A program made the translations under genes and the position numbers. 24,345 bases of DNA from Acinetobacter lwoffii. GTDB lineage: Bacteria; Pseudomonadota; Gammaproteobacteria; Pseudomonadales; Moraxellaceae. Shown here one piece after another: positions 503-19,351 of the stretch (the first letter of the stretch is position 1; every line of letters begins with the position of its first letter). Below the pieces are notes generated by a model. It saw only the letters and a program-made list of their open reading frames with translations, was not told where the DNA came from and did no database searches. The stretch lies in assembly GCF_019048525.1 (NCBI RefSeq), contig NZ_CP077372.1, forward strand, positions 1 to 24,345, in the 5' to 3' direction.

Positions 503-1039
503 ATGAATGAAATTAGAAAAGGTGGTCCATAGGGAAGGTGCAGGAAGAAAGGCAATTTTACAATGAACCCACTAAGACTATGCGTGTACCAATATCACGT
601 ATTGTAGAGATTAAGAAGTTTTTAGCGAATCATAAAAAGACTACCTTAAATGATGTAGCTACTATAACTTTAATTAATCCTTCAACCTTTAAAACGTATT
701 CCTTTAGCTTCAGAAAAAGTAGCTGCTGGTTTCCCTTCTCCCGCACAAGATTACATTGATAAAACTTTAGATATGAATGAACACCTTGTGAAAAATGAAG
801 CTGCAACATTTGTTGTCAAAGTAGCTTCTCTTTCCATGCGTGACGCAGGCATTGAAATTGATGACGAGCTTTTAGTGGATCGTAGTCTTGAAGCTAAACA
901 CGAAGATATTGTTATTGCCTTAATTGACAATGAGTTCACCGTTAAGCGGTTAATGGTTGAAGGTGATAAGTGTTGGCTTAAAGCTGAAAATCCAGATTAT
1001 GACTCGATATTCACCTTAATGATTGCCAAGAATTATTAA
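503..1039 (+). pseudogene. umuD: UmuD-like S24 peptidase, DNA polymerase V accessory protein, frameshifted
   Basis: Self-cleaving S24/LexA-fold protein of the UmuD family, the accessory subunit of error-prone DNA polymerase V. The start ATG at 503 follows AGGGG. The N-terminus reads MNEIRKGGP then, after a shift, GAGRKG and NEPTKTMRVPISRIVEIKKF, the extended N-terminus typical of Acinetobacter UmuD. Next come the cleavage region AAGFPSP near 725, the nucleophile serine in SLSMRDAG near 830 (GDSMIDGG in E. coli UmuD) and the catalytic lysine in EFTVKRL near 940. From 773 to the TAA at 1037-1039 the frame is clean; upstream at least two or three indels break it. It is followed by umuC and preceded by a palindromic operator, so SOS control is likely. 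Catalytic residues are intact, so loss of function is not certain. Confidence 0.88.
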
Positions 1040-3769: not shown

Positions 3770-4838
3770 TTAGCGTTCTTGTTCCTTCCCTTTGTTCAAT
3801 CTTTGTTGTGGATCTGGCTTATTAGGTTGAATCTGTGGCTGTGGTTTTTTCACTTCTACCTGTTTCCGTAAATAGTCCACTAGATCAACTGCTAGTTTTC
3901 TATCTTGCGGATCTGGTGACTGTGATAGAGCTTTAGTAATTTCCTTGTAATGCGTCAATGCTTCTTTTTCTTGCTGTTTAGCTTTCTGGACACGTTCTGG
4001 ACTTGCCTTATTTTTACCATATCGCTTAAACGATTTGCCCTGCTCTTTCATTTGTTTAACTGACTGCTTATCACTTCTATTTTTTTGAAGCCTAGCTATA
4101 CCGTTTTGTCGCATTCGCTTCAATCCCTCTGGATCTTAATTTTTCAGCAAAACTTTCTCGCCATTCCTGAAGATCAGCCTTCCTGATATTTAACCGATCC
4201 CCTTTTTCAGAAACAGCTTTAACAACAACATGCACATGCGGGTTTTCACTTGGATCTTTTGAAGGGTCATTGGTAAAGGTATGCTGCACCATCATATATT
4301 TATGGTCTTTAAAATGTTCCTCTGCAAATTCTTTTGCAGCATCATAAAACGCCTTTTCATCCGTACCTTTCGGCATAGATAACACAATATTAAAAGCCTG
4401 CTTATATTTAGATTCTTCATCAGAAATAGGTGTACCTGACATTTGCCAATCTTCAGCAGTATCTTCTATATCATCCTTACCATTAACTTTATTTCCGTCC
4501 TGATCAATTCCCTCTAATTGCCCATTTCGTGTGATATATCCCATGTGGGCTTTCACCTTCCCCATAGAATTACCTCCACCAGTAACCTTGACCATTACTT
4601 CAGGGGTCTTTTTACTGATTCTATTTAAAGTTTGCCTTAACGCTATTTGGAGATGATTTAGGGCTGATTTAGCTGAATGGCCAGATCCATTTTTAGGCTT
4701 AGACAGATCATTTAAAAAAGTATCTAAACTTTGGGTCTGATTAACACGCTTAACTTTAGATCCGTTAAGTAGCTGCTCACCATGAGCAAGCAAAGTGCTT
4801 TGCACTTCTCTGGTAGTCTTACTGCTTCCGTTAGCCAT
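3770..4838 (-). CDS. mobA: MOBP-type relaxase (mobilization nuclease), one frameshift
   Basis: DNA-strand transferase that nicks oriT and pilots the single strand into the recipient. The N-terminal nuclease domain shows GYITRNGQLEG (residues about 93-103), which carries the likely catalytic tyrosine, and a metal-binding motif NPHVHVVVKAV (about 202-212) with paired histidines. The C-terminal ~100 residues are lysine/glutamine-rich. The frame breaks near 4095-4120: residues ending EANATKR are followed in another frame by ARLQKNRSDKQS, giving a protein of about 355 residues ending at 3770. I prefer ATG 4838 (MANGSSK) because it overlaps the stop of the upstream accessory gene by one base (TAATG), implying translational coupling; an in-frame GTG lies at 4847. 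The oriT about 0.75 kb upstream has an RP4-like nic, which fits a MOBP enzyme. Confidence 0.87.
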
Positions 4839-5534: not shown

Positions 5535-5596
5535 CCATTTTATCAACTGGGTGACAAAATGGCAATTTTAACGGCTGCTGCCTATCCTGCCCTAGA
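5535..5596 (+). other. oriT: oriT with RP4-like nic site
   Basis: CCTATCCTGCCCT at 5581-5593 matches the nic core of the IncP plasmid RP4 (YATCCTG followed by a pyrimidine), placing the predicted cut between G5589 and C5590 on the plus strand. On its 5' side is an 11-bp inverted repeat with one mismatch, CCATTTTATCA (5535-5545) and TGACAAAATGG (5552-5562), in the position where RP4 has its accessory-protein binding repeat. It lies directly upstream of the divergently read accessory and relaxase genes. The core is seen; cleavage is inferred from RP4. Confidence 0.82.
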
Positions 5597-5628: not shown

Positions 5629-5642
5629 TTAGTCATGACTAA
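5629..5642. repeat. 14-bp palindrome TTAGTCATGACTAA, copy next to oriT
   Basis: Perfect self-complementary 14-mer. Eight exact copies occur in the window (5629, 7637, 8163, 8788, 8814, 9478, 10293, 10739), plus near copies at 9684 and 19398. All are intergenic. This copy lies 39 bases past the predicted nic. Confidence 0.85.
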
Positions 5643-5704: not shown

Positions 5705-5733
5705 CTTTTTTCCATTGATAGGTTTAGGCTTCT

Positions 5734-6761
5734 TGTAAATACTCGATTCAAGGCTGCTGCAATCTACAGATACCTCTGTTCCATCTTCGTATTTGATCCA
5801 TGCAAAACCCAAGAAGTAGGCTTTTTATTTAGCATCAGGTTCGCTTGTCGGCCGTCATGAATAACAAACTAAAAGCGGTTTTTTGATTTTGTCTGGATCT
5901 TCTTCTTTAGCTTCTGGCTGCTCTTTCTGATTCGATTGATCCATCAGTTTTTTAACTTCTGGTTCTTCTGGTTCTTCAGTCGCTTCAGCTTGATCATCCC
6001 CTCAAATTGAAAGATTCATTATCATCAATAATGGCGGTTTGCTCTTGCTTTCTTGCGCCTGTGGTTCTTGATCTACTTCAGTCGCTTCAGCTTGCTTAGG
6101 TTCTTTTAACTTTTTAGATAAAAGCCTGAACTCTAGATCTGATAATGTCCTGACCATTCTCTAAAGATCATCCACCCAAGCGTTTACTTCTTCAGGGAAG
6201 GATTCCAAAGTTTGCGTAAGTCATACAAAGTCTTTGGAGATTTAAACCTGCATCATAAGCCTTAGATAAGCATTCTGGCATATCTACTAAAGCTAAGTGA
6301 GTAGAAATGAAAAACAGGATCTTCATTTAACTTTTTAGCGATTACGTTTTTCTTCTCACCTTGCTTAATTTTCTTCTTGGATGAAAAGTGCAAGCTCAAT
6401 AGGTGAATGGTTAAGGCGTTCTTTATTCTCCATGACTTGATCATATCAATCATGATCATTATCAACAAAGCAGGGATAGTTTCCCTTGCCAGCCATCACT
6501 GAAGCTCTAAAACGTCTAGCTCCATAAATTGATGATCCACTTGCCTTGTTCTGTTGGGTGGGGTTTAACACTAATTGGTGTTTTAACTCCACGAGCCTTG
6601 ATTGATTCGACCATTTTTTGCATCTGATCTTCTGGAAACTCAACACGCGGCTGATCTGGATCTTCAAGAATATCTGTAAGTGGAATCTGCTTAGGTGTTC
6701 CGTCTGCTACTGGTGCAGAATTACCTAGATCAATACCTTCCAAAGCTGATAAATCTAACAT
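5734..6761 (-). pseudogene. parB: ParB-like partition protein, frameshifted
   Basis: Centromere-binding partition protein. It starts at ATG 6761 with AAGG six bases upstream: MLDLSALEGIDLGNSAPVAD, then PLTDILEDPDQPR and EDQMQKMVESIKARGVKTPI, the typical ParB/Spo0J N-terminal domain. After a shift the conserved GARRFRASVMAGKG appears near 6535-6490, followed by FVDNDHDMIDQVMENKERLN, the helix-turn-helix region KQGEKKNVIAKKLN (6340-6380) and a low-complexity tail rich in E, P, Q and K with repeated EATE motifs (6100-5900). The last recognisable part is GFAWIKYEDGTEVSVDCSSLE near 5800-5755; the end is approximate. There are at least six frame breaks. It begins four bases after the parA stop and shares the parA promoter; a terminator follows. 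Confidence 0.85.
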
Positions 6762-6764
6762 TCC

Positions 6765-7542
6765 TTAAATCTCCATAAACTTGTTAATGCTTTCAACAAA
6801 CTGTTTTTAATTCAGCCCATGCGGTAAAACCGCTAGTTTTACCCAATTTATTTGTAGGTATGCCTTGCGCTTGCGCTTCAGCGATTGCAGTCGTTTTTTA
6901 ACGAAGGCATAGCTACCGTCTGAGTTTTTGATCAGGTTACTTTGAAAAATGCTGAACAATAGCTTTTAGGTTGTCTTTCTGAAATGGAGTTGGTTCAACA
7001 ATATTCGGAAGGATGCCGATTAATTTTAAATTTGGGTTTAGCTTTTGATTAATCGCTTGGATCTGCTTGAGTAATCCACCGATGCCGTCAATAGCTTCCT
7101 GATTCAATTGAATTGGACTTAAAACATAGTCACTAACAATTAATGAAGCTACTTGGCGAATGTCGGGATTTGGATTGGTATCAATCAGGCAAACATCAAA
7201 TAAAGAATCAACTGATTTTAAAAACTTCTGGTAATTGGTGGCAAAGTTGTTATGCAAAGTGCCATTTTTTTCAATAGCTGTTAATTCTGGTGTTGCTTGT
7301 ACCAAAGTAAAGGCTTCAGGATTTGAAATAGTTTGATCTTCTTTGGTCAGCATGTCGAATGCAGATACATTAGCTACAGTCACAGCCCCGCCAGTAATCA
7401 ATGCTTTTGTAGTGTTCTTCTGGTGGTCTAGATCAATGACTAATACACGCAAGCCCAAAGAATTTAAATAGTGTGCATACTGGCAAATGATTGCAGATTT
7501 ACCCACACCGCCCTTTTGATTTGAAGCAACAACTTTTTTCAT
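6765..7542 (-). CDS. parA: ParA partition ATPase, C-terminus frameshifted
   Basis: Deviant Walker-type ATPase that positions plasmid copies with ParB. ATG 7542 follows AGGTGAAAT. The P-loop is QKGGVGKSAIICQYA at residues 9-23, Walker A' is VLVIDLDHQKN at about 34-44, and Walker B is DVCLIDTNPNPD at about 115-126. The frame is clean to residue 201 (6937); then single-base shifts lead through NSDGSYAFVKK and IAEAQAQGIPTNKLGKTSGF to TAA 6767-6765, giving about 259 residues, normal for the family. There is no long N-terminal DNA-binding domain, so autorepression by ParA itself is less likely. Transcription probably starts from the module at 7568-7650. All catalytic motifs are intact. Confidence 0.93.
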
Positions 7543-7567
7543 ATTTCACCTAGTTTAATGGCTTATT

Positions 7568-7650
7568 AAGGGTCGCCCTATTGCGTCCTTATGCTGTATA
7601 TTCTAACGTCCACCTGTGGACATTGCAAGCATTTTCTTAGTCATGACTAA
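7568..7650 (-). promoter_or_regulatory. Promoter/operator/leader module of parAB (diverged copy)
   Basis: Read on the minus strand: palindrome TTAGTCATGACTAA (7650-7637), -35 TTGCAA (7628-7623), a 17-bp spacer containing the inverted repeat GTCCAC-AG-GTGGAC (7621-7608), -10 TAGAAT (7605-7600), and a 23-nt leader hairpin (7590-7568) with arms AAGG/CCTT and inner CGC/GCG. The hairpin begins about ten bases after the -10 hexamer, so it lies at the predicted 5' end of the RNA. Confidence 0.8.
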
Positions 7651-7669
7651 GTTTTTTATCATAAAAAAA

Positions 7670-7688
7670 TCCTCCCATAAAGGGAGGA
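7670..7688 (-). terminator. Intrinsic terminator of the 7695-8075 gene
   Basis: TCCTCCC (7670-7676) pairs with GGGAGGA (7682-7688) around a five-base loop. The A-tract at 7662-7669 gives a T-run on the minus strand. Confidence 0.88.
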
Positions 7689-7694
7689 CGTAAA

Positions 7695-8075
7695 TTAAAA
7701 ATCTTCAGGATAACCGATTGTTATGACTGGCTCTCCTTGATCTCCACCATGAACGTGCAATTCTAAAATATGATTTCTCTTGCGACCTGCGCCTGTGATA
7801 ATCACAGTAAAACGTACCGCACTAGGGCTTAGGTGTGTCTTATATACTCGGCTCATCCATAAAATGTCATGAATAACGCCCTCTAAGTCATTAAGCCATT
7901 TTTCATTTTTTACCGCCTTATCAACTACCGCCCAAAGCGCAGAAGTGAAACAGATAGGATGCTTATAATGTTCTTTTGCCAGTCCATCTAATTTAGGACT
8001 AAGAGAATTGATTGCAACTAAAAAACCATCTTCAATGGCTTGCTGACGTGTGTAAACTGAAATGTATTGTTCCAT
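7695..8075 (-). CDS. DUF6573-like small plasmid protein (126 aa)
   Basis: Intact 126-residue protein starting at ATG 8075. The opening YTRQQAIEDGFLV resembles the YTRxQAIxDGxLVD start of a small plasmid/phage family I know as DUF6573; I assign it from memory of that motif, so only moderately. The middle (HPICFTSALWAVVDKAVKN) matches the expected PVxxTxAxW segment, and the C-terminus has a beta-rich HILELHVHGGDQGEPVITIG. There is no signal peptide or membrane segment. It is a single-gene unit with its own promoter module (8096-8176) and terminator. Lying in the predicted leading region beside oriT, it could act early after transfer, for example against host defence; that is inference from position only. 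Confidence 0.75.
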   Translation of the reverse strand: MEQYISVYTRQQAIEDGFLVAINSLSPKLDGLAKEHYKHPICFTSALWAVVDKAVKNEKWLNDLEGVIHDILWMSRVYKTHLSPSAVRFTVIITGAGRKRNHILELHVHGGDQGEPVITIGYPEDF

Positions 8076-8095
8076 GATTTTTAACCTGTTTTATT

Positions 8096-8176
8096 TCAGG
8101 TCGCCCGATGCGTCCTGATAAAGTCATTATATCAGTCCACCTGTGGACATTCAAGCAAAAGCTTAGTCATGACTAA
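8096..8176 (-). promoter_or_regulatory. Promoter/operator/leader module, copy 1
   Basis: Minus-strand order: palindrome TTAGTCATGACTAA (8176-8163), -35 TTGAAT (8154-8149), 17-bp spacer carrying GTCCAC-AG-GTGGAC (8148-8135), consensus -10 TATAAT (8131-8126), then the 23-nt leader hairpin (8118-8096) with arms TCAGG/CCTGA and inner CGC/GCG around ATCGG. A CAGG, the likely ribosome binding site, follows the hairpin and lies about ten bases before the ATG. It drives the 126-aa gene. Confidence 0.85.
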
Positions 8177-8262
8177 TTTTTTTATAGGGAAAATTGAGTA
8201 GAAAAATATCCGTTTTAATACCTGGCTAAACCGCTTTTCAGATGCTCTTATTTGCGATTCTT

Positions 8263-8284
8263 AGGCTGCTGACAGCCTTTTTTA
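8263..8284 (+). terminator. Plus-strand intrinsic terminator with no plus-strand gene
   Basis: AGGCTG (8263-8268) and CAGCCT (8273-8278) form a perfect stem with a CTGA loop, followed by six T. No plus-strand open frame precedes it. The same element, with its upstream TTATTTGCG, recurs at 9577-9597. It could end an unannotated small RNA or block read-through. Confidence 0.7.
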
Positions 8285-8413
8285 TATATGAAGCTAGGTT
8301 ATCCTAGCACCGACCTGAACAGGCCAAAATGAGCGTATATAAAGCAGAACAGATAGACAATTTTTTATGTTTTTTAGGCAAGCTAAAAACCAAAAAAATC
8401 GCCACCAAAAAAA

Positions 8414-8432
8414 ACCTCCCATTGTGGGAGGT
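8414..8432 (-). terminator. Intrinsic terminator of the 8438-8699 gene
   Basis: ACCTCCC (8414-8420) and GGGAGGT (8426-8432) pair around ATTGT; the A-tract at 8407-8414 provides the minus-strand T-run. Confidence 0.88.
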
Positions 8433-8437
8433 CTAGC

Positions 8438-8699
8438 TTAAACGGCTAAGTTATAAGTAATTCTGTAATCTTCAAAATAACCGTTTTCATTATCTCCCCT
8501 TCTGATTCTTTCAATATGAGTAACATTGTGGGCTACTCGGCAACTAATCATGATTTTTTCAATTTCTTGAAATAGTGTTTTTTCATCAAAGATTGGAAAC
8601 CAAATATTATTAGATCCAGTTAAAACCTCATGACCGCAAAAATGAACCAGTTTACCTGTAGGAATAGTTTGTAAAGATTGCAACTATTGAAGCTCGCAT
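8438..8699 (-). CDS. Hypothetical small protein (about 86 aa)
   Basis: Unrecognised acidic small protein. The open frame runs from QSLQTIPTGKLVHFCGHEVL (about 8680) to YFEDYRITYNLAV and its stop at 8438. The only start in that frame near the leader is a TTG at 8683; ATG 8699 sits about ten bases after the AGGA of the module leader, as in the sister genes, but is one base out of frame. I take 8699 as the true start with a single-base error between. No signal peptide or membrane helix is seen. It has its own promoter module and terminator, like its neighbours. Confidence 0.65.
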
Positions 8700-8718
8700 A
8701 ATGAATTCCTGTTTTTAT

Positions 8719-8801
8719 TCAGGTCGCCCGATGCGTCCCTGATAAAAGTCATTATATCAGTCCACCTGTGGACATTCAAGCAAAAACTTAGTCATGACTA
8801 A
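8719..8801 (-). promoter_or_regulatory. Promoter/operator/leader module, copy 2
   Basis: Same architecture as 8096-8176: palindrome (8801-8788), -35 TTGAAT (8779-8774), 17-bp spacer with the GTCCAC/GTGGAC operator (8773-8760), -10 TATAAT (8756-8751), and leader hairpin (8742-8719) with one extra C in the CCCTGA arm on the plus strand. It drives the 86-aa gene. Confidence 0.84.
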
Positions 8802-8813
8802 GGATAATAAGGC

Positions 8814-8827
8814 TTAGTCATGACTAA
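8814..8827. repeat. Second 14-bp palindrome upstream of module copy 2
   Basis: An exact extra copy of TTAGTCATGACTAA, 12 bases beyond the module's own copy; centres are 26 bp apart, near two and a half helical turns. It may double the binding site at this promoter. Confidence 0.8.
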
Positions 8828-8846
8828 GAGAATTGATAAAAAAAGC

Positions 8847-8858
8847 CCCCTTTCGGGG
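8847..8858 (-). terminator. Intrinsic terminator of the J-domain gene
   Basis: CCCC (8847-8850) and GGGG (8855-8858) around TTTC, extended by flanking G/C pairs; the A-tract at 8838-8844 gives the minus-strand T-run. Confidence 0.8.
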
Positions 8859-8874
8859 ACTTATTCATTAAGCG

Positions 8875-9389
8875 TTAAAAGTTGTCTTTCTTCTGCCATT
8901 CTGGTTTTTTTAACTTTCTGGCTGCCGTGTAACTCTCGCATTTTGATCTAAAGTCATTCGACCTCGACCATTTGATTTTTTTACCAATGAAAACCCATTT
9001 ACATTGCACTCGATTCCATACAAAACCCGCTTCTTTTAATTTGTCTTGTGCTGCTTAGTATCACCAGAAACCCAAACCCAAACGCCATAATTTCAATATC
9101 TAAACCATCCAGATTGATAATTGCATCAATAGCCTGTTTTACTTTTTTCTCAACTTCAGAGTGTTCTGAACGGCTTGACCAGAAACCACGCCCATTTTCG
9201 AACTATCTTGATATTACTGATCTTTTGAAGCTTCATTAATAATGCGATTTAAAAGCTGTTCATATTCGCTGTTAATCTCCTGCATAACTTCGGTTTTACC
9301 GCCACGATCAGGATGATTTTTAAAAGCAAGTTTTTTTGTACGGAAGTTTTAACTCGTCTAATGATGTAACTGATGAAAAATGTTTTCAT
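8875..9389 (-). pseudogene. J-domain (DnaJ-like) small protein, frameshifted
   Basis: A gene with a J-domain helix-loop-helix core. It starts at ATG 9389, about eight bases after CAGG, with MKTFFISYIIRRVKT. After a shift it reads KNHPDRGGKTEVMQEINSEYEQLLNRII (about 9310-9230), containing the HPD tripeptide that stimulates Hsp70 ATPases. The C-terminal part (VEKKVKQAIDAIINLDGLDIEI; SGDTKQ..; LKEAGFVWNRVQCKWVFIGKK) resembles a small domain often paired with plasmid/phage J-like proteins. It ends at TAA 8877-8875, about 170 residues, with at least five indels. The role could be recruiting host DnaK, or the fold may have been reused. It has its own promoter module and terminator. Confidence 0.75.
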
Positions 9390-9409
9390 TTTAAATACCT
9401 GTTTTTATT

Positions 9410-9491
9410 TCAGGTCGCCCGATGCGTCCTGATAAAATCATTATATCAGTTCCACCTGTGGACATTCAAGCAAAAACTTAGTCATGACTAA
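9410..9491 (-). promoter_or_regulatory. Promoter/operator/leader module, copy 3
   Basis: Palindrome (9491-9478), -35 TTGAAT (9469-9464), operator GTCCAC..GTGGAC with one extra base (9463-9449; spacer 18 instead of 17), -10 TATAAT (9445-9440), leader hairpin (9432-9410). It drives the J-domain gene. The extra base in a run of T may be a sequencing error. Confidence 0.83.
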
Positions 9492-9576
9492 TTTTTTAAA
9501 TGATATAAATTCATAAAAATAGCTATTTAAGTATTTTGTCTGGTCTGCTTTTCTAATGCTTATATTTGCGTTTCTT

Positions 9577-9597
9577 AGGCTGCTGATAGCCTTTTTT
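9577..9597 (+). terminator. Plus-strand intrinsic terminator, second copy
   Basis: AGGCT (9577-9581) and AGCCT (9588-9592), followed by seven T. It matches 8263-8284 including the upstream TT(A)TTTGCG.TTCTTAGGCTGCTGA segment, with scattered differences. No plus-strand gene precedes it. Confidence 0.68.
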
Positions 9598-9683
9598 TAC
9601 CCTACGTCTAGCTACCCCCACATTAAACACACAAACACCCTAAAACGAGCATAAAACACACAAGATGAACAACCTTTTTCCCC

Positions 9684-9697
9684 TTAGTCATGATTAA
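9684..9697. repeat. Near copy of the 14-bp palindrome
   Basis: TTAGTCATGATTAA, one mismatch from the palindrome consensus. It lies between the plus-strand terminator and the terminator of the next minus-strand gene. Confidence 0.6.
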
Positions 9698-9712
9698 GAA
9701 TGTATAAAAAAA

Positions 9713-9727
9713 ATCCCCTTTCGGGAT
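9713..9727 (-). terminator. Intrinsic terminator of the 9786-10201 gene
   Basis: ATCCC (9713-9717) and GGGAT (9723-9727) around CTTTC; an A-tract at 9706-9713 provides the minus-strand T-run. Confidence 0.75.
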
Positions 9728-9785
9728 CTCTTTTAAATTGGACAAGAATTAAAAATTTTATGGAATGGATCATTCCTATAAGCTG

Positions 9786-10201
9786 TCACTCTATATACGC
9801 TTTAAGGCGTTTTTTAGTGTATGGCTCAAAGATCACTAAAAAGTGTGAGAATAGCCCACCTCCCAACTGTTCGGGACGCAGCATGAACATTTCAAAGTTA
9901 AAACCTCCATACGTGCGGGCAGGGGGAAGGATATTAAACTTTTCATCATATTCAGTAGTGAAATTTCAATCGGTTCTAAATAGTTATTCTCTTCTGAAAG
10001 ATAATCTTTTTCAGTCATAACTGAAGCAGCAGCAAAGCTTCTCCATAACTGTTTTGTAATTCTAGTATTAATTGACCTACATTCTTTTTAGTAAGACAGC
10101 AAACATATTGATCATTAAGATTGTCTAAGTAACCAAAAAAAATGGACTGATTCAACTTCAGATTTCTTTAATGTATAGACTAAAACTAAATCCTGATTCA
10201 T
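9786..10201 (-). pseudogene. Hypothetical protein (about 138 aa), frameshifted
   Basis: Unrecognised soluble protein read through several shifts: ATG 10201 (MNQDLVLVYTLKKSEVESVH), LDNLNDQYVCCLTKKNVGQL near 10130-10075, SVMTEKDYLSEENNYLEPIE near 10025-9965, then YDEKFNILPPARTYGGFNFE near 9945-9890 and MFMLRPEQLGGGLFSHFLVI, ending KRLKAYIE at TGA 9788-9786. A minus-strand open frame ending at 9836 is an out-of-frame continuation. The start is supported by the CAGG eight or nine bases upstream, as in the other module-driven genes. No signal peptide is seen. Position in the module array suggests early expression after transfer; function unknown. Confidence 0.65.
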
Positions 10202-10222
10202 AACTAAATACCTGTTTTTATT

Positions 10223-10306
10223 TCAGGTCGCCCGATGCGTCCTGATAAAAAATCATTATATCAGTCCAACCTGTGGACATTCAAGAAATAACTTAGTCAT
10301 GACTAA
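10223..10306 (-). promoter_or_regulatory. Promoter/operator/leader module, copy 4
   Basis: Palindrome (10306-10293), -35 TTGAAT (10284-10279), operator with one extra base (10278-10264, spacer 18), -10 TATAAT (10260-10255), leader hairpin (10245-10223). It drives the 138-aa gene and is the last member of the array before the replication region. Confidence 0.83.
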
Positions 10307-10342
10307 GAAATAAAATAATGTTTAGTTAAGATCCCTAGAGGT

Positions 10343-10414
10343 TATATCAGAGCAAAGTGTCTACTTTGCGAACGTGGTGCAATCAGTTAATTTTCCCTTC
10401 CCTGATTACCGTTG
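10343..10414. repeat. Left copy of a ~73-bp inverted repeat, partner at 19238-19311
   Basis: Starts TATATCAGAGCAAAGTG and ends CCCTGATTACCGTTG. It matches the reverse complement of 19238-19311 with a few differences, mostly around 10370-10382. Inside is a small palindrome, GCAAAGT..ACTTTGC. The two copies bound an 8.8-kb segment holding rep, oriV, the mob remnant and the TPR/MFS island. Confidence 0.85.
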
Positions 10415-10738
10415 CAAGGGGGCAAGCGAAGCCGATAAAATCTGTGATTTTGTCGAGCTGACCGCAGCACCGCAACTGCTCCCATTTGATCTAAAACGGG
10501 ATACCTAACGCCAGCCCGCATGGGGTGGCGACCAGATAGCATAGAAAACTAAAAAATGTAGGAGGTAAGTAAGGCAAAAACTAAATATTTAAAAACTAAT
10601 CAGCTAGATTTATTGGCAAAATATTACAGGTTTTGGCCAAATCCTGGGAAACATTAAGTTATTGTTTTTATTATATGGTTGTAAATTGAAATTCTAAAAA
10701 AAATGGCAAAATATTCCACTTAGGCTAAACGTAAACTT
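10415..10738. other. Gene-free GC-richer segment, then AT-rich DNA
   Basis: No credible gene. 10415-10545 is clearly GC-richer than its surroundings and has small inverted repeats such as AAAATC..GATTTT (10438-10452) and a TGGCGACC (10526-10533) that resembles the GGCGACC core of the module leaders. 10560-10738 is AT-rich and carries two direct copies of TGGCAAAATATT (10614 and 10704). The GC-rich part could be a structured RNA or a recombination or transfer site; I cannot tell which. Confidence 0.4.
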
Positions 10739-10752
10739 TTAGTCATGACTAA
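10739..10752. repeat. 14-bp palindrome TTAGTCATGACTAA, isolated copy
   Basis: Exact copy in the gap between the repeated-module array and the replication genes, about 100 bases downstream of the replication accessory gene. No promoter module accompanies it. Confidence 0.8.
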
Positions 10753-10851
10753 GGTATCAATTAGCTAATTATTAAATTTTAATATTTGGATGCGAATAGA
10801 AAAGATACTTTTTATATAGATTAATAAGAATTTTGAAGGTTTTAAATTGAA

Positions 10852-13932: not shown

Positions 13933-13953
13933 AAGCCTGATTTAATCAGGCTT
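13933..13953. terminator. Bidirectional intrinsic terminator
   Basis: AAGCCTGA (13933-13940) and TCAGGCTT (13946-13953) form an 8-bp stem around TTTAA, flanked by an A-run on the left and a T-run on the right. It serves the convergent TrbM-like gene and the minus-strand 13946-14200 gene, whose stop codon lies in the stem. Confidence 0.92.
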
Positions 13954-14200
13954 TTTTTTCTTGTAATTGTTTATAGAAAATTCTTAAAACTTCTTTGACT
14001 GCTACACTTTTTCCGTGTTTTTCCCCGCCATAAATATCTTTTAAATATTCTAAGGCTTCCAGTGCCTCAACATCTTCAGGAACATCCATATTGAAATAAA
14101 CTGAAAGTGGAGTTTTGGTAGTAGGCTTTTTTCTATATCTTTTTCTGCGATCTAATACCTTTCCTTCTGTTTCTGTTTCTGTTCCTAGTTCTTCAGTCAT
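13946..14200 (-). CDS. Small basic/acidic protein, possible ribbon-helix-helix regulator
   Basis: Intact 84-residue protein starting at ATG 14200. The N-terminus is acidic then very basic (RRKRYRKKPTTKTP). It is followed by a short strand LSVYFNM, helix VPEDVEALEALEYLKDIY, a GGEKHGKS turn and helix VAVKEVLRIFYKQL, an order compatible with a ribbon-helix-helix DNA-binding fold. I do not recognise a named family. A copy of the GTCCAC-AG-GTGGAC operator lies 20-34 bases upstream of its start, so it may be controlled with, or be the repressor of, the module-driven genes; that is a hypothesis. A terminator is shared with the convergent TrbM-like gene. Confidence 0.7.
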   Translation of the reverse strand: MTEELGTETETEGKVLDRRKRYRKKPTTKTPLSVYFNMDVPEDVEALEALEYLKDIYGGEKHGKSVAVKEVLRIFYKQLQEKKA

Positions 14201-14220: not shown

Positions 14221-14234
14221 GTCCACAGGTGGAT
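14221..14234. promoter_or_regulatory. Sixth copy of the GTCCAC/GTGGAC operator
   Basis: GTCCACAGGTGGAT, one mismatch at the edge of the inverted repeat found between -35 and -10 in the five modules. It is just upstream of the 84-aa gene but lacks the 14-bp palindrome and the clear hexamers. A TGGCGACCCG (minus strand, 14278-14269) lies about 35 bases farther out. Confidence 0.65.
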
Positions 14235-14359
14235 ATTAAGTCCTTTTTAAATAATTTACTACTTATATCGGGTCGCCATTTATGAGAAGTAGCATTGCAA
14301 TAGTATGTTTTAACGTGGGGTTATAACGATGCGTGGCTCCGTCAGCCTATCAGGTTAAA

Positions 14360-14422
14360 TCGGCAATACTTAGGGGATGTGTCATTTTTTTAGATGACCG
14401 CCCTTAGGGTGAGTATTGCCGA
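14360..14422. repeat. Large stem-loop 1 at the mob remnant
   Basis: TCGGCAATACT (14360-14370) and AGTATTGCCGA (14412-14422) are perfect 11-bp arms; inside, GTCAT and ATGAC form a second stem. It is directly adjacent to stem-loop 2. It could be a remnant oriT or a structured RNA. Confidence 0.75.
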
Positions 14423-14486
14423 AACTCTCTCCACGTTCACCATCTGCCTGAACGAAGTGAAGGCTGTGGGGAATGTGGAGAGAGTT
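14423..14486. repeat. Large stem-loop 2 at the mob remnant
   Basis: AACTCTCTCCAC (14423-14434) and GTGGAGAGAGTT (14475-14486) are perfect 12-bp arms; GTTCA and TGAAC inside form a second stem. It starts on the base after stem-loop 1 ends, and its right arm overlaps the first codons of the relaxase-remnant frame. Confidence 0.8.
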
Positions 14487-14593
14487 GAGCGCCTTTAGTT
14501 TTACAAGATTCATGCCAGTACCTACTAGAATTTATATACCGTGTCATTTGATTAAATTTTTAGTCTGTACGACTGCCTTAATTTTAATAAGTA

Positions 14594-18869: not shown

Positions 18870-19237
18870 AGTGTCACTGGTGGCAACGTAGTGATAGTGA
18901 GAATCCGAGAGGAAAGAGAGCTAAACCGTTACAGGGGAATCCCCAAAAGCGGAACGTTGAGAGGTAGTTGTATAGGTCAGCTTTACAGTTGCATGTTGGG
19001 GAAACCCTCGCAAGAGATACCTGCCATACTTCGACAGGGAGCGTGTGGGGAGAGGTGCAAAACTTTTAGTCCTTGTCTGCCATGTCAGCAAAAACATGGT
19101 GCGGATACGACCCCTTTTAATAACCTCATATTATGTACTATGTACTATTTAAATCCCGCTACTAGATCAAATTGTGCAGTTTATTTTCTGCGGGTCGCCA
19201 TTTAAAAAGCACAGCTTTTTAAAGCTCACTTGAAAAT
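18870..19237. other. GC-richer structured segment without a convincing gene
   Basis: A 104-codon plus-strand open frame (18891-19205) covers it, but its translation (MIVRIREERELNRYRGIPKS...) looks like no protein I know and has no good ribosome binding site. Composition jumps from very AT-rich to about half GC, then falls again near 19110. Short inverted repeats are present (TCACT 18873-18877 / AGTGA 18891-18895; GGGGAAT/ATTCCCC-like at 18937). Near 19190-19203 lies CGGGTCGCCATTTA, an exact copy of 14269-14282. It could be a structured RNA or a transfer or recombination site. Confidence 0.4.
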
Positions 19238-19311
19238 CAACGGTAATCAGGGAAGGGAAAATTAACTGAATTGCGTCAGTTTCGCAAAGTAGACCACTTT
19301 GCTCTGATATA
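19238..19311. repeat. Right copy of the ~73-bp inverted repeat, partner at 10343-10414
   Basis: CAACGGTAATCAGGG ... CACTTTGCTCTGATATA, the reverse complement of 10343-10414 with a few differences. Together the copies bracket the replication, mob-remnant and TPR/MFS segment. Confidence 0.85.
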
Positions 19312-19351
19312 TCTGCTATGGATCTGGATTAGATAGGTAATATAGATGACT

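Follow-up and report, generated by a model that had tools for sequence, protein, structure and literature searches.

In plasmids of the IncP-1 group, near-identical promoter regions stand before different genes and have been read as propagated 'as preformed units' (PMC2680271), and in RP4 expression of the leading-region operons controlled by KorA and KorB, and of the anti-restriction gene klcA, increases strongly in new transconjugants, the transferred strand (T-strand) serving as template (PMC7314908). In IncN plasmids such units belong to the CUP regulon (Delver and Belogurov 1997, as cited in PMC6289460), and for p576, of the pLS20 family, a repressor left behind in the donor is described as giving rise to a transient burst (PMC8708921). 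In this study, we describe five copies of one promoter-operator module on the minus strand of a 24,345-base contig of Acinetobacter lwoffii, the whole of which is called the window here and whose nearest plasmid relatives come from Acinetobacter. We consider it probable (about 0.6) that these modules are repressible sigma-70-type promoters of a leading-region establishment regulon, repressed by a protein with an Aca2-like fold together with a KorB-family ParB and transiently released in the recipient. The anatomy, conservation and position of the modules, the predicted fold of the candidate repressor and the KorB membership of ParB are what was observed; from these we infer binding, repression, transient induction and a role for the leader hairpin.

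Results

The window is contig C4 of a 3.47-Mb genome in 9 contigs, and all of it aligns to positions 12032-36258 of another contig, C3, with 98.2% identity, 76 mismatches and 360 gap positions. Open reading frames (ORFs) of the mobC-par-leading-region-rep segment are intact in C3, whereas several of them are broken in the window. Judging from this alignment, we take the window to be a redundant, indel-ridden duplicate of C3:12032-36258 in the same assembly, its broken frames probably reflecting assembly error rather than decay. Module anatomy was read from C3 and from named plasmids, not from the damaged copies in the window.

The preliminary description of this DNA had reported five minus-strand copies of the module, and all five are present where it had placed them. 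In C3, each runs on the minus strand from the 14-bp palindrome TTAGTCATGACTAA through a short spacer, the -35, GTCCACAGGTGGAC within a 17-bp spacer and the -10 to a hairpin. The -35 is TTGAAT and the -10 TATAAT, except that the parA module of C3 has TTGCAA and TAGAAT. Module 1, before the parA-parB/korB operon, lies at 7568..7650 of the window (palindrome 7637-7650, -35 TTGCAA 7628-7623, operator 7608-7621, -10 TAGAAT 7605-7600, leader hairpin 7568-7590) and is identical in all six aligned sources. Module 2, before a DUF6573 gene, lies at 8096..8176 (palindrome 8163-8176, -35 TTGAAT 8154-8149, operator 8135-8148, -10 8131-8126, hairpin 8096-8118), and module 3, before an 87-aa gene, at 8719..8801 (palindrome 8788-8801, -35 8779-8774, operator 8760-8773, -10 8756-8751, hairpin about 8719-8742). 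Module 4, before a J-domain gene, occupies 9410..9491 (palindrome 9478-9491, -35 9469-9464, operator about 9449-9463, -10 9445-9440, hairpin 9410-9432), and module 5, before a 154-aa gene, 10223..10306 (palindrome 10293-10306, -35 10284-10279, operator about 10264-10278, -10 10260-10255, hairpin 10223-10245). Within one plasmid modules 2-5 are 86-94% alike, and the parA module is the divergent one.

With up to two mismatches the operator GTCCACNNGTGGAC has five matches in the window (modules 1-4 and a site at 14221) against 0.14 expected, and 0 of 100 shuffles reached five; the operator of module 5 escapes this search through a difference in length. The palindrome, allowing one mismatch, has ten matches in the window against 0.02 expected. 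On C3, the spacer operator is found within one mismatch at seven places, six of them in 17-bp spacers. The spacer, earlier given as 17-18 bp, is exactly 17 bp with the 14-bp operator inside it in all five C3 modules; the 18-bp spacers of modules 4 and 5 in the window look like assembly indels, and we have corrected the figure to 17 bp because the C3 copies all agree and those of the window are indel-damaged.

A 93-base module query matched 20 of 72,556 plasmid records, all predicted to be conjugative, at five places in 17 records and at four in three. Absence of the modules from related plasmids had been named as a finding that would refute the proposal of a copied control cassette; their presence there fits that proposal, as do the unrelated genes downstream. 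A megablast search with window 7500-10800 returned 78 plasmid records. In 20 of them a single place matches 80% or more of the query; the remaining 20 among the 40 matches listed cover only about window 10342-10488. Full-length relatives include pHHV35, pHHV216, pHH1107 and pAb-B004d-c_1, although module 5 and its gene are both missing from pHH1107. Of these, pHHV35 has been assigned to the 'Low-GC' (LowGC) plasmid group (PMC7031236). In seven sources the operator lies upstream of all 28 starts of the five genes within one substitution, exactly so at 27; other loose matches to the gene-start words, which lack an operator, are located elsewhere. A pattern search of the species' genomes, which covered one promoter form only, gave four contigs. 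Orthologous copies of a module differ on average by 0-5% (at most 7.5%), whereas paralogous copies within one plasmid, module 1 omitted, differ by 5.7-14%. Recent duplication of the modules was rejected on these distances, and since paralogues are more distant than orthologues, most of the copying appears to predate the separation of these plasmids.

The genes behind the modules all lie on the minus strand. Frames are broken in the window for parA (6766..7542; 258 aa in C3) and parB (5722..6762; 346 aa in C3), whose bounds were transferred from C3, for the J-domain-like protein of module 4 (8868..9389; 172 aa in C3; DnaJ match just under the Pfam cut-off) and for the module 5 protein (9733..10203; 154 aa in C3; no Pfam family). 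The DUF6573 protein is encoded at 7695..8075 and the small protein of module 3 at 8438..8700 (87 aa in C3; no Pfam family). That the downstream coding regions are unrelated was upheld, as no convincing similarity was seen among the four small proteins and ParA (best non-self E 0.12). Assignment of the four small genes to a defence family failed in PADLOC, where the J-domain protein weakly matches one DRT-associated family and nothing else was found, and PHROGs gave only families of unknown function for the J-domain protein and one weak match for the 87-aa protein. The claim that each small gene has its own terminator stood for three of the four, which are directly followed by a minus-strand terminator in a scan of pAb-B004d; for the 154-aa gene the scan lists a hairpin on the opposite strand only, and a T run follows the gene by eye.

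Between mobC and parB the window carries, on the plus strand at 5583-5590, the nic-like motif TATCCTGC of a putative origin of transfer (oriT), which makes plus the transferred strand. The form CTGCCTATCCTGCCC is found between the same genes in the window, C3, pAb-B004d and pHH1107, and the 8-base pattern has three further occurrences in C3. We take the motif to be the MOBP nic consensus. An oriT-like region of pAVAci14 likewise lies between par and mobC, and the oriT of pHHV35 has been localised to the same position (PMC7031236). We read the T-strand as the plus strand, which would run from about 5590 through parB, parA and the module genes, with the relaxase gene and mobC entering the recipient last. 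The leading-region genes read toward oriT; as the module genes are all on the minus strand, the modules fall in the leading region with the T-strand as their template. The preliminary description had placed the modules beside oriT; they are about 2.0-4.7 kb from the motif, and it is the leading-region position that holds.

The parB gene adjoins parA, and its product resembles RP4 KorB in PDB (E 2e-43) and carries ParB_N, KorB and KorB_C domains above the Pfam cut-offs. The palindrome TTAGTCATGACTAA, whose arms resemble those of the RK2 KorB site, TTTAGC(C/G)GCTAAA (PMC2680271), is presumably bound by this ParB, to judge from these likenesses. It is present at all five modules, as claimed, but is not confined to them, six of the 11 exact copies in C3 lying outside. 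In the window a copy stands beside oriT at 5629..5642 (no strand assigned), and further copies lie at 8814, 9684 (one mismatch), 10739 and 19398 (one mismatch). Allowing two mismatches, it is absent from the first 50,000 bases of R46, from pNDM-BJ01 and from pALWED2.2. The centres of palindrome and operator are 28 bp apart in four modules and 29 bp apart in that of parA. No match to the KORA family, KorA (TrfB, PF16509), was found in the genome at E 0.001.

A candidate for the protein at the spacer operator is encoded outside the window, at C3:1238-1624. This 128-aa protein has a predicted model with a two-domain fold, helix-turn-helix plus helical dimerisation, that matches the Aca2 fold over nearly its whole length at about 20% sequence identity, and in all six LowGC loci aligned the promoter of its gene carries the operator within a 17-bp spacer. 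It had no hmmscan match to Aca2_YdiL (PF08965) at E 0.1, that family has no match in the genome, and a search of the repressor alignment against PDB gave nothing meaningful. Homologues occur in 14 of 175 genomes of the genus and in the same 14 among 348 genomes of the family; five are of LowGC type with the operator, and nine are distant without an operator nearby. No distant homologue was confirmed in viral contigs. The preliminary description saw one operator, through which one repressor could block five promoters. The placement in the spacer supports this, as does a sixth such promoter before the predicted repressor gene; nevertheless, there are probably two operators, the palindrome for the KorB-family ParB and the spacer repeat for the Aca2-fold protein, and the candidate repressor gene lies beyond the window. 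A sixth operator in the window, with one mismatch, lies on the minus strand at 14221..14234, about 20 bp before an 84-aa ORF (13946..14200, minus strand) whose helix order is compatible with a ribbon-helix-helix protein and whose product, on a poor model, might be a regulon member or a second regulator.

In the LowGC leaders the core of the fold has five pairs, then a 1x1 mismatch, three more pairs and a 5-nt loop, and it begins 7-8 nt after the -10 in 22 of 22 folded copies (parA excluded); four CUP leaders of R46 show the same pattern in the same place with a loop of six. Seven leaders have RNA z-scores between -2.8 and +0.3, those of the parA leader (-0.2) and of the repressor's own leader (+0.3), which has no module-type hairpin, being unremarkable. 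A message-protecting stem and an RNA target of a repressor would both fit; that CUP plasmids pair such a hairpin with a KORA-family regulator speaks for the former. Birkholz et al. are said to have found in 2024 that the targets of Aca2 also include mRNA stem-loops.

Another module, 110 nt long, is present in five copies in pNDM-BJ01, which belongs to a set of plasmids typed to another relaxase class than the LowGC plasmids; the two families carry resistance genes, blaNDM-1 in pNDM-BJ01 and tet(X3) in pHH1107. This second promoter is, by eye, TTGTAC, 17 bp and TATAAT, with a long dyad spanning the -35 and the spacer. Five plasmids of this kind (L015, L018, L020, L021 and L057) have 30 leader hairpins with 18 distinct sequences, on one strand per plasmid, and with ATTGG as loop. 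Stem pairs 1-6 form in all 18 distinct sequences, pair 5 being changed on both sides in three; the covariation is thin, as 96 of 108 cells are paired where shuffles average 91.3, and one of 2000 shuffles does equally well. A module of this type in p2014S07-126-3 stands before an ardC-like gene, whose product has ArdC N-terminal and metallopeptidase domains. Four of the five pNDM-BJ01-like plasmids encode a homologue of the 128-aa protein (26-34% identity) at the traD end of the leading region, and that of the fifth is 99% identical to the one of pNDM-BJ01; in none of the five does a clear copy of the second operator stand just before the homologue. At about 1500-1590 of a small MOBQ plasmid (L056), the second-type operator forms a near-perfect dyad with a T run behind it; a further operator-like stretch comes soon after, both apparently outside a module. 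In pNDM-BJ01 itself (L014), a perfect 200-nt inverted repeat (563-762 and 4316-4515) encloses about 3.5 kb of the leading region, possibly through inversion or gene conversion.

A noncoding element of about 150 bp was also noticed at window 10329-10480 (plus) and 19238-19325 (minus), at C3 about 937-1022 (minus) and at L014 4316-4515 and 563-762. It occurs at 1102 places in 377 plasmid records (367 from Acinetobacter), with several copies per plasmid in both orientations, and spans plasmids typed MOBP, MOBQ and MOBF; the copy at 10329-10480 was rejected as oriT for its several copies and its occurrence in all three types. The consensus fold of eight copies, among them two near-identical pairs, has two hairpin regions; several of its pairs show changes on both sides, and some are broken in two or three of the eight. 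Rfam gave no match in the window at gathering score, nor any for the element at E values up to 1; the element may be a site of single-strand initiation, an RNA or a single-stranded DNA promoter. In L059, the element precedes a minus-strand gene, behind which comes an N-6 DNA methylase gene. By eye, window 14271-14500 and 18880-19200 are G+C-rich, hairpin-rich noncoding stretches in an A+T-rich plasmid. The pALWED2.2-like L017 and L019 contain 14 and 18 copies of a word, mostly in steps of about 197 bp, and the scattered palindrome TTTTCGTTAACGAAAA, perhaps another plasmid-wide operator.

Discussion

In sequence, the LowGC modules have what behaviour like that of RP4 and p576 would require. In a plasmid-bearing cell, the Aca2-fold repressor would occupy the operators before parA-korB, four leading-region genes and its own gene, and the KorB-family ParB would sit on TTAGTCATGACTAA just upstream of the -35 at the five modules. 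In conjugation the T-strand would arrive free of repressor proteins, and once the DNA is double-stranded the leading-region genes, for which this strand is the template, would be strongly expressed until both repressors, each made from an operator-bearing promoter, are rebuilt and shut the set down. The 5' hairpin might stabilise this short-lived burst of message or offer a second, RNA-level target to a repressor. A bolder form of this idea makes the Aca2-fold protein the master repressor of Acinetobacter conjugative establishment at two levels, acting on DNA at the spacer operator, with KorB upstream, and stopping translation through the A-N-N-G-G loop hairpin near the 5' end of the mRNA, with the same plan recurring in pNDM-BJ01-like plasmids, where the operator is another one but the leader hairpin is similar and a homologue of the protein is encoded; we regard this form as possible but rather unlikely.

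The identity of the repressor is where a different explanation has most to say. Repression at the palindrome may come from the KorB-family ParB alone, while the 84-aa product or an unrecognised protein binds the spacer repeat and the 128-aa protein is just another target. The near-perfect operator about 20 bp before the 84-aa ORF recurs in L012, L013, L024 and L027, a ribbon-helix-helix repressor does the same job in p576 (PMC8708921), and the rule that an operator stands beside the 128-aa homologue fails in the pNDM-BJ01 family. That operator has a mismatch, however, with no -35 or -10 recognisable around it by eye, and the model of the 84-aa product is poor (pLDDT 57), whereas the 128-aa gene combines a repressor-like fold with an operator in its own spacer at every LowGC locus aligned; on balance, we find an Aca2-fold repressor the better explanation and this alternative unlikely. 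Less likely still is that the repeats serve mainly in partition or DNA handling, as ParB centromere palindromes, or as decoys, with promoter-like spacing that is incidental or constitutive. The palindromes outside the modules would suit this, and so would the promoter scan of the region, which found 8 promoters against 11.8 expected in shuffles and thus a number not above shuffles; but the spacer operator is concentrated in 17-bp spacers, and -35, -10, spacing and leader are retained together across copies and plasmids.

Leading-region position and a T-strand template would also fit Frpo/ssi-type single-stranded promoters, active on the incoming T-strand before the second strand is made, and such promoters are reported from leading regions (Samuel et al. 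2024, PMC11541004). Five folded T-strand stretches are all more stable than the shuffle mean (z -2.1 to -5.4). However, in the folds of four modules and one second-type module, -35 and -10 do not come to lie in one duplex, the T-strand hairpins being separate short palindromes; in three of these four modules, one such palindrome extends into the -10. The modules moreover resemble complete double-stranded promoters, and we rejected a Frpo-like promoter, which we hold to be very improbable, on the ground that these folds leave -35 and -10 unpaired with each other.

If repression by an Aca2-fold protein with KorB is true, the modules form a compact switch that decides which plasmid genes wake on arrival, candidate anti-defence genes can be found by the promoter module alone, and the Aca2 fold has a role outside phage anti-CRISPR operons. 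Three plasmid groups are moreover seen to have copied promoter-operator units with a hairpin close to the 5' end of the message. We found no description of these modules or of the entry programme of these plasmids in the literature searched, whose scope did not extend to the original CUP paper and the LowGC founding paper. Acinetobacter does not occur in the main text of Samuel et al. 2024 (PMC11541004), nor do the whole words DUF6573, DnaJ, Aca, ArdK, operator and inverted repeat.

The plan of the arrangement is already known from IncP-1, IncN and pLS20-type plasmids. Like the KorA/KorB regulon of RP4/RK2 (korA, trfA, klcA, kleA and kleC promoters), the proposed LowGC regulon includes an incC-korB type operon and has a presumed KorB operator just upstream of the -35, with the presumed operator of a second repressor over the core promoter. 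In IncP-1 that repressor is KorA and its operator covers the -10, whereas here there is no KorA-family Pfam match, an Aca2-fold protein seems to take the role of KorA, and the operator lies inside the spacer; the leader hairpin that is part of the LowGC unit may be a further difference. The IncN plasmids pKM101 and R46 likewise carry near-identical CUP units before leading-region genes (ardA, ardB, ccgAI and ccgD in R46), and the first leader hairpin there has, at the same position, the same 5 bp, 1x1 mismatch and 3 bp with a loop of 6 rather than 5, but ArdK belongs to the KORA family, the shared stretch is longer, and the letters of promoter and leader differ. In the Bacillus pLS20-family system (EGeRS2/p576), an autoregulated repressor silences several establishment promoters in the donor and is not transferred, as proposed here; that repressor is of the ribbon-helix-helix type, the host is Gram-positive, and in pLS20 the transferred strand is stated to be the non-template strand (PMC8708921). 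Aca2/YdiL of the phage ZF40 acrIF8-aca2 operon shares the predicted fold and an inverted repeat within its own core promoter (PMC8434428, PMC9410906), whereas the protein described here is about 20% identical, falls below Pfam detection and would control a multi-promoter plasmid regulon. As far as we could see, what is new is the pairing of a proposed Aca2-fold regulator with KorB, an operator placed within the spacer, and the occurrence of such an arrangement in two families of Acinetobacter plasmids.

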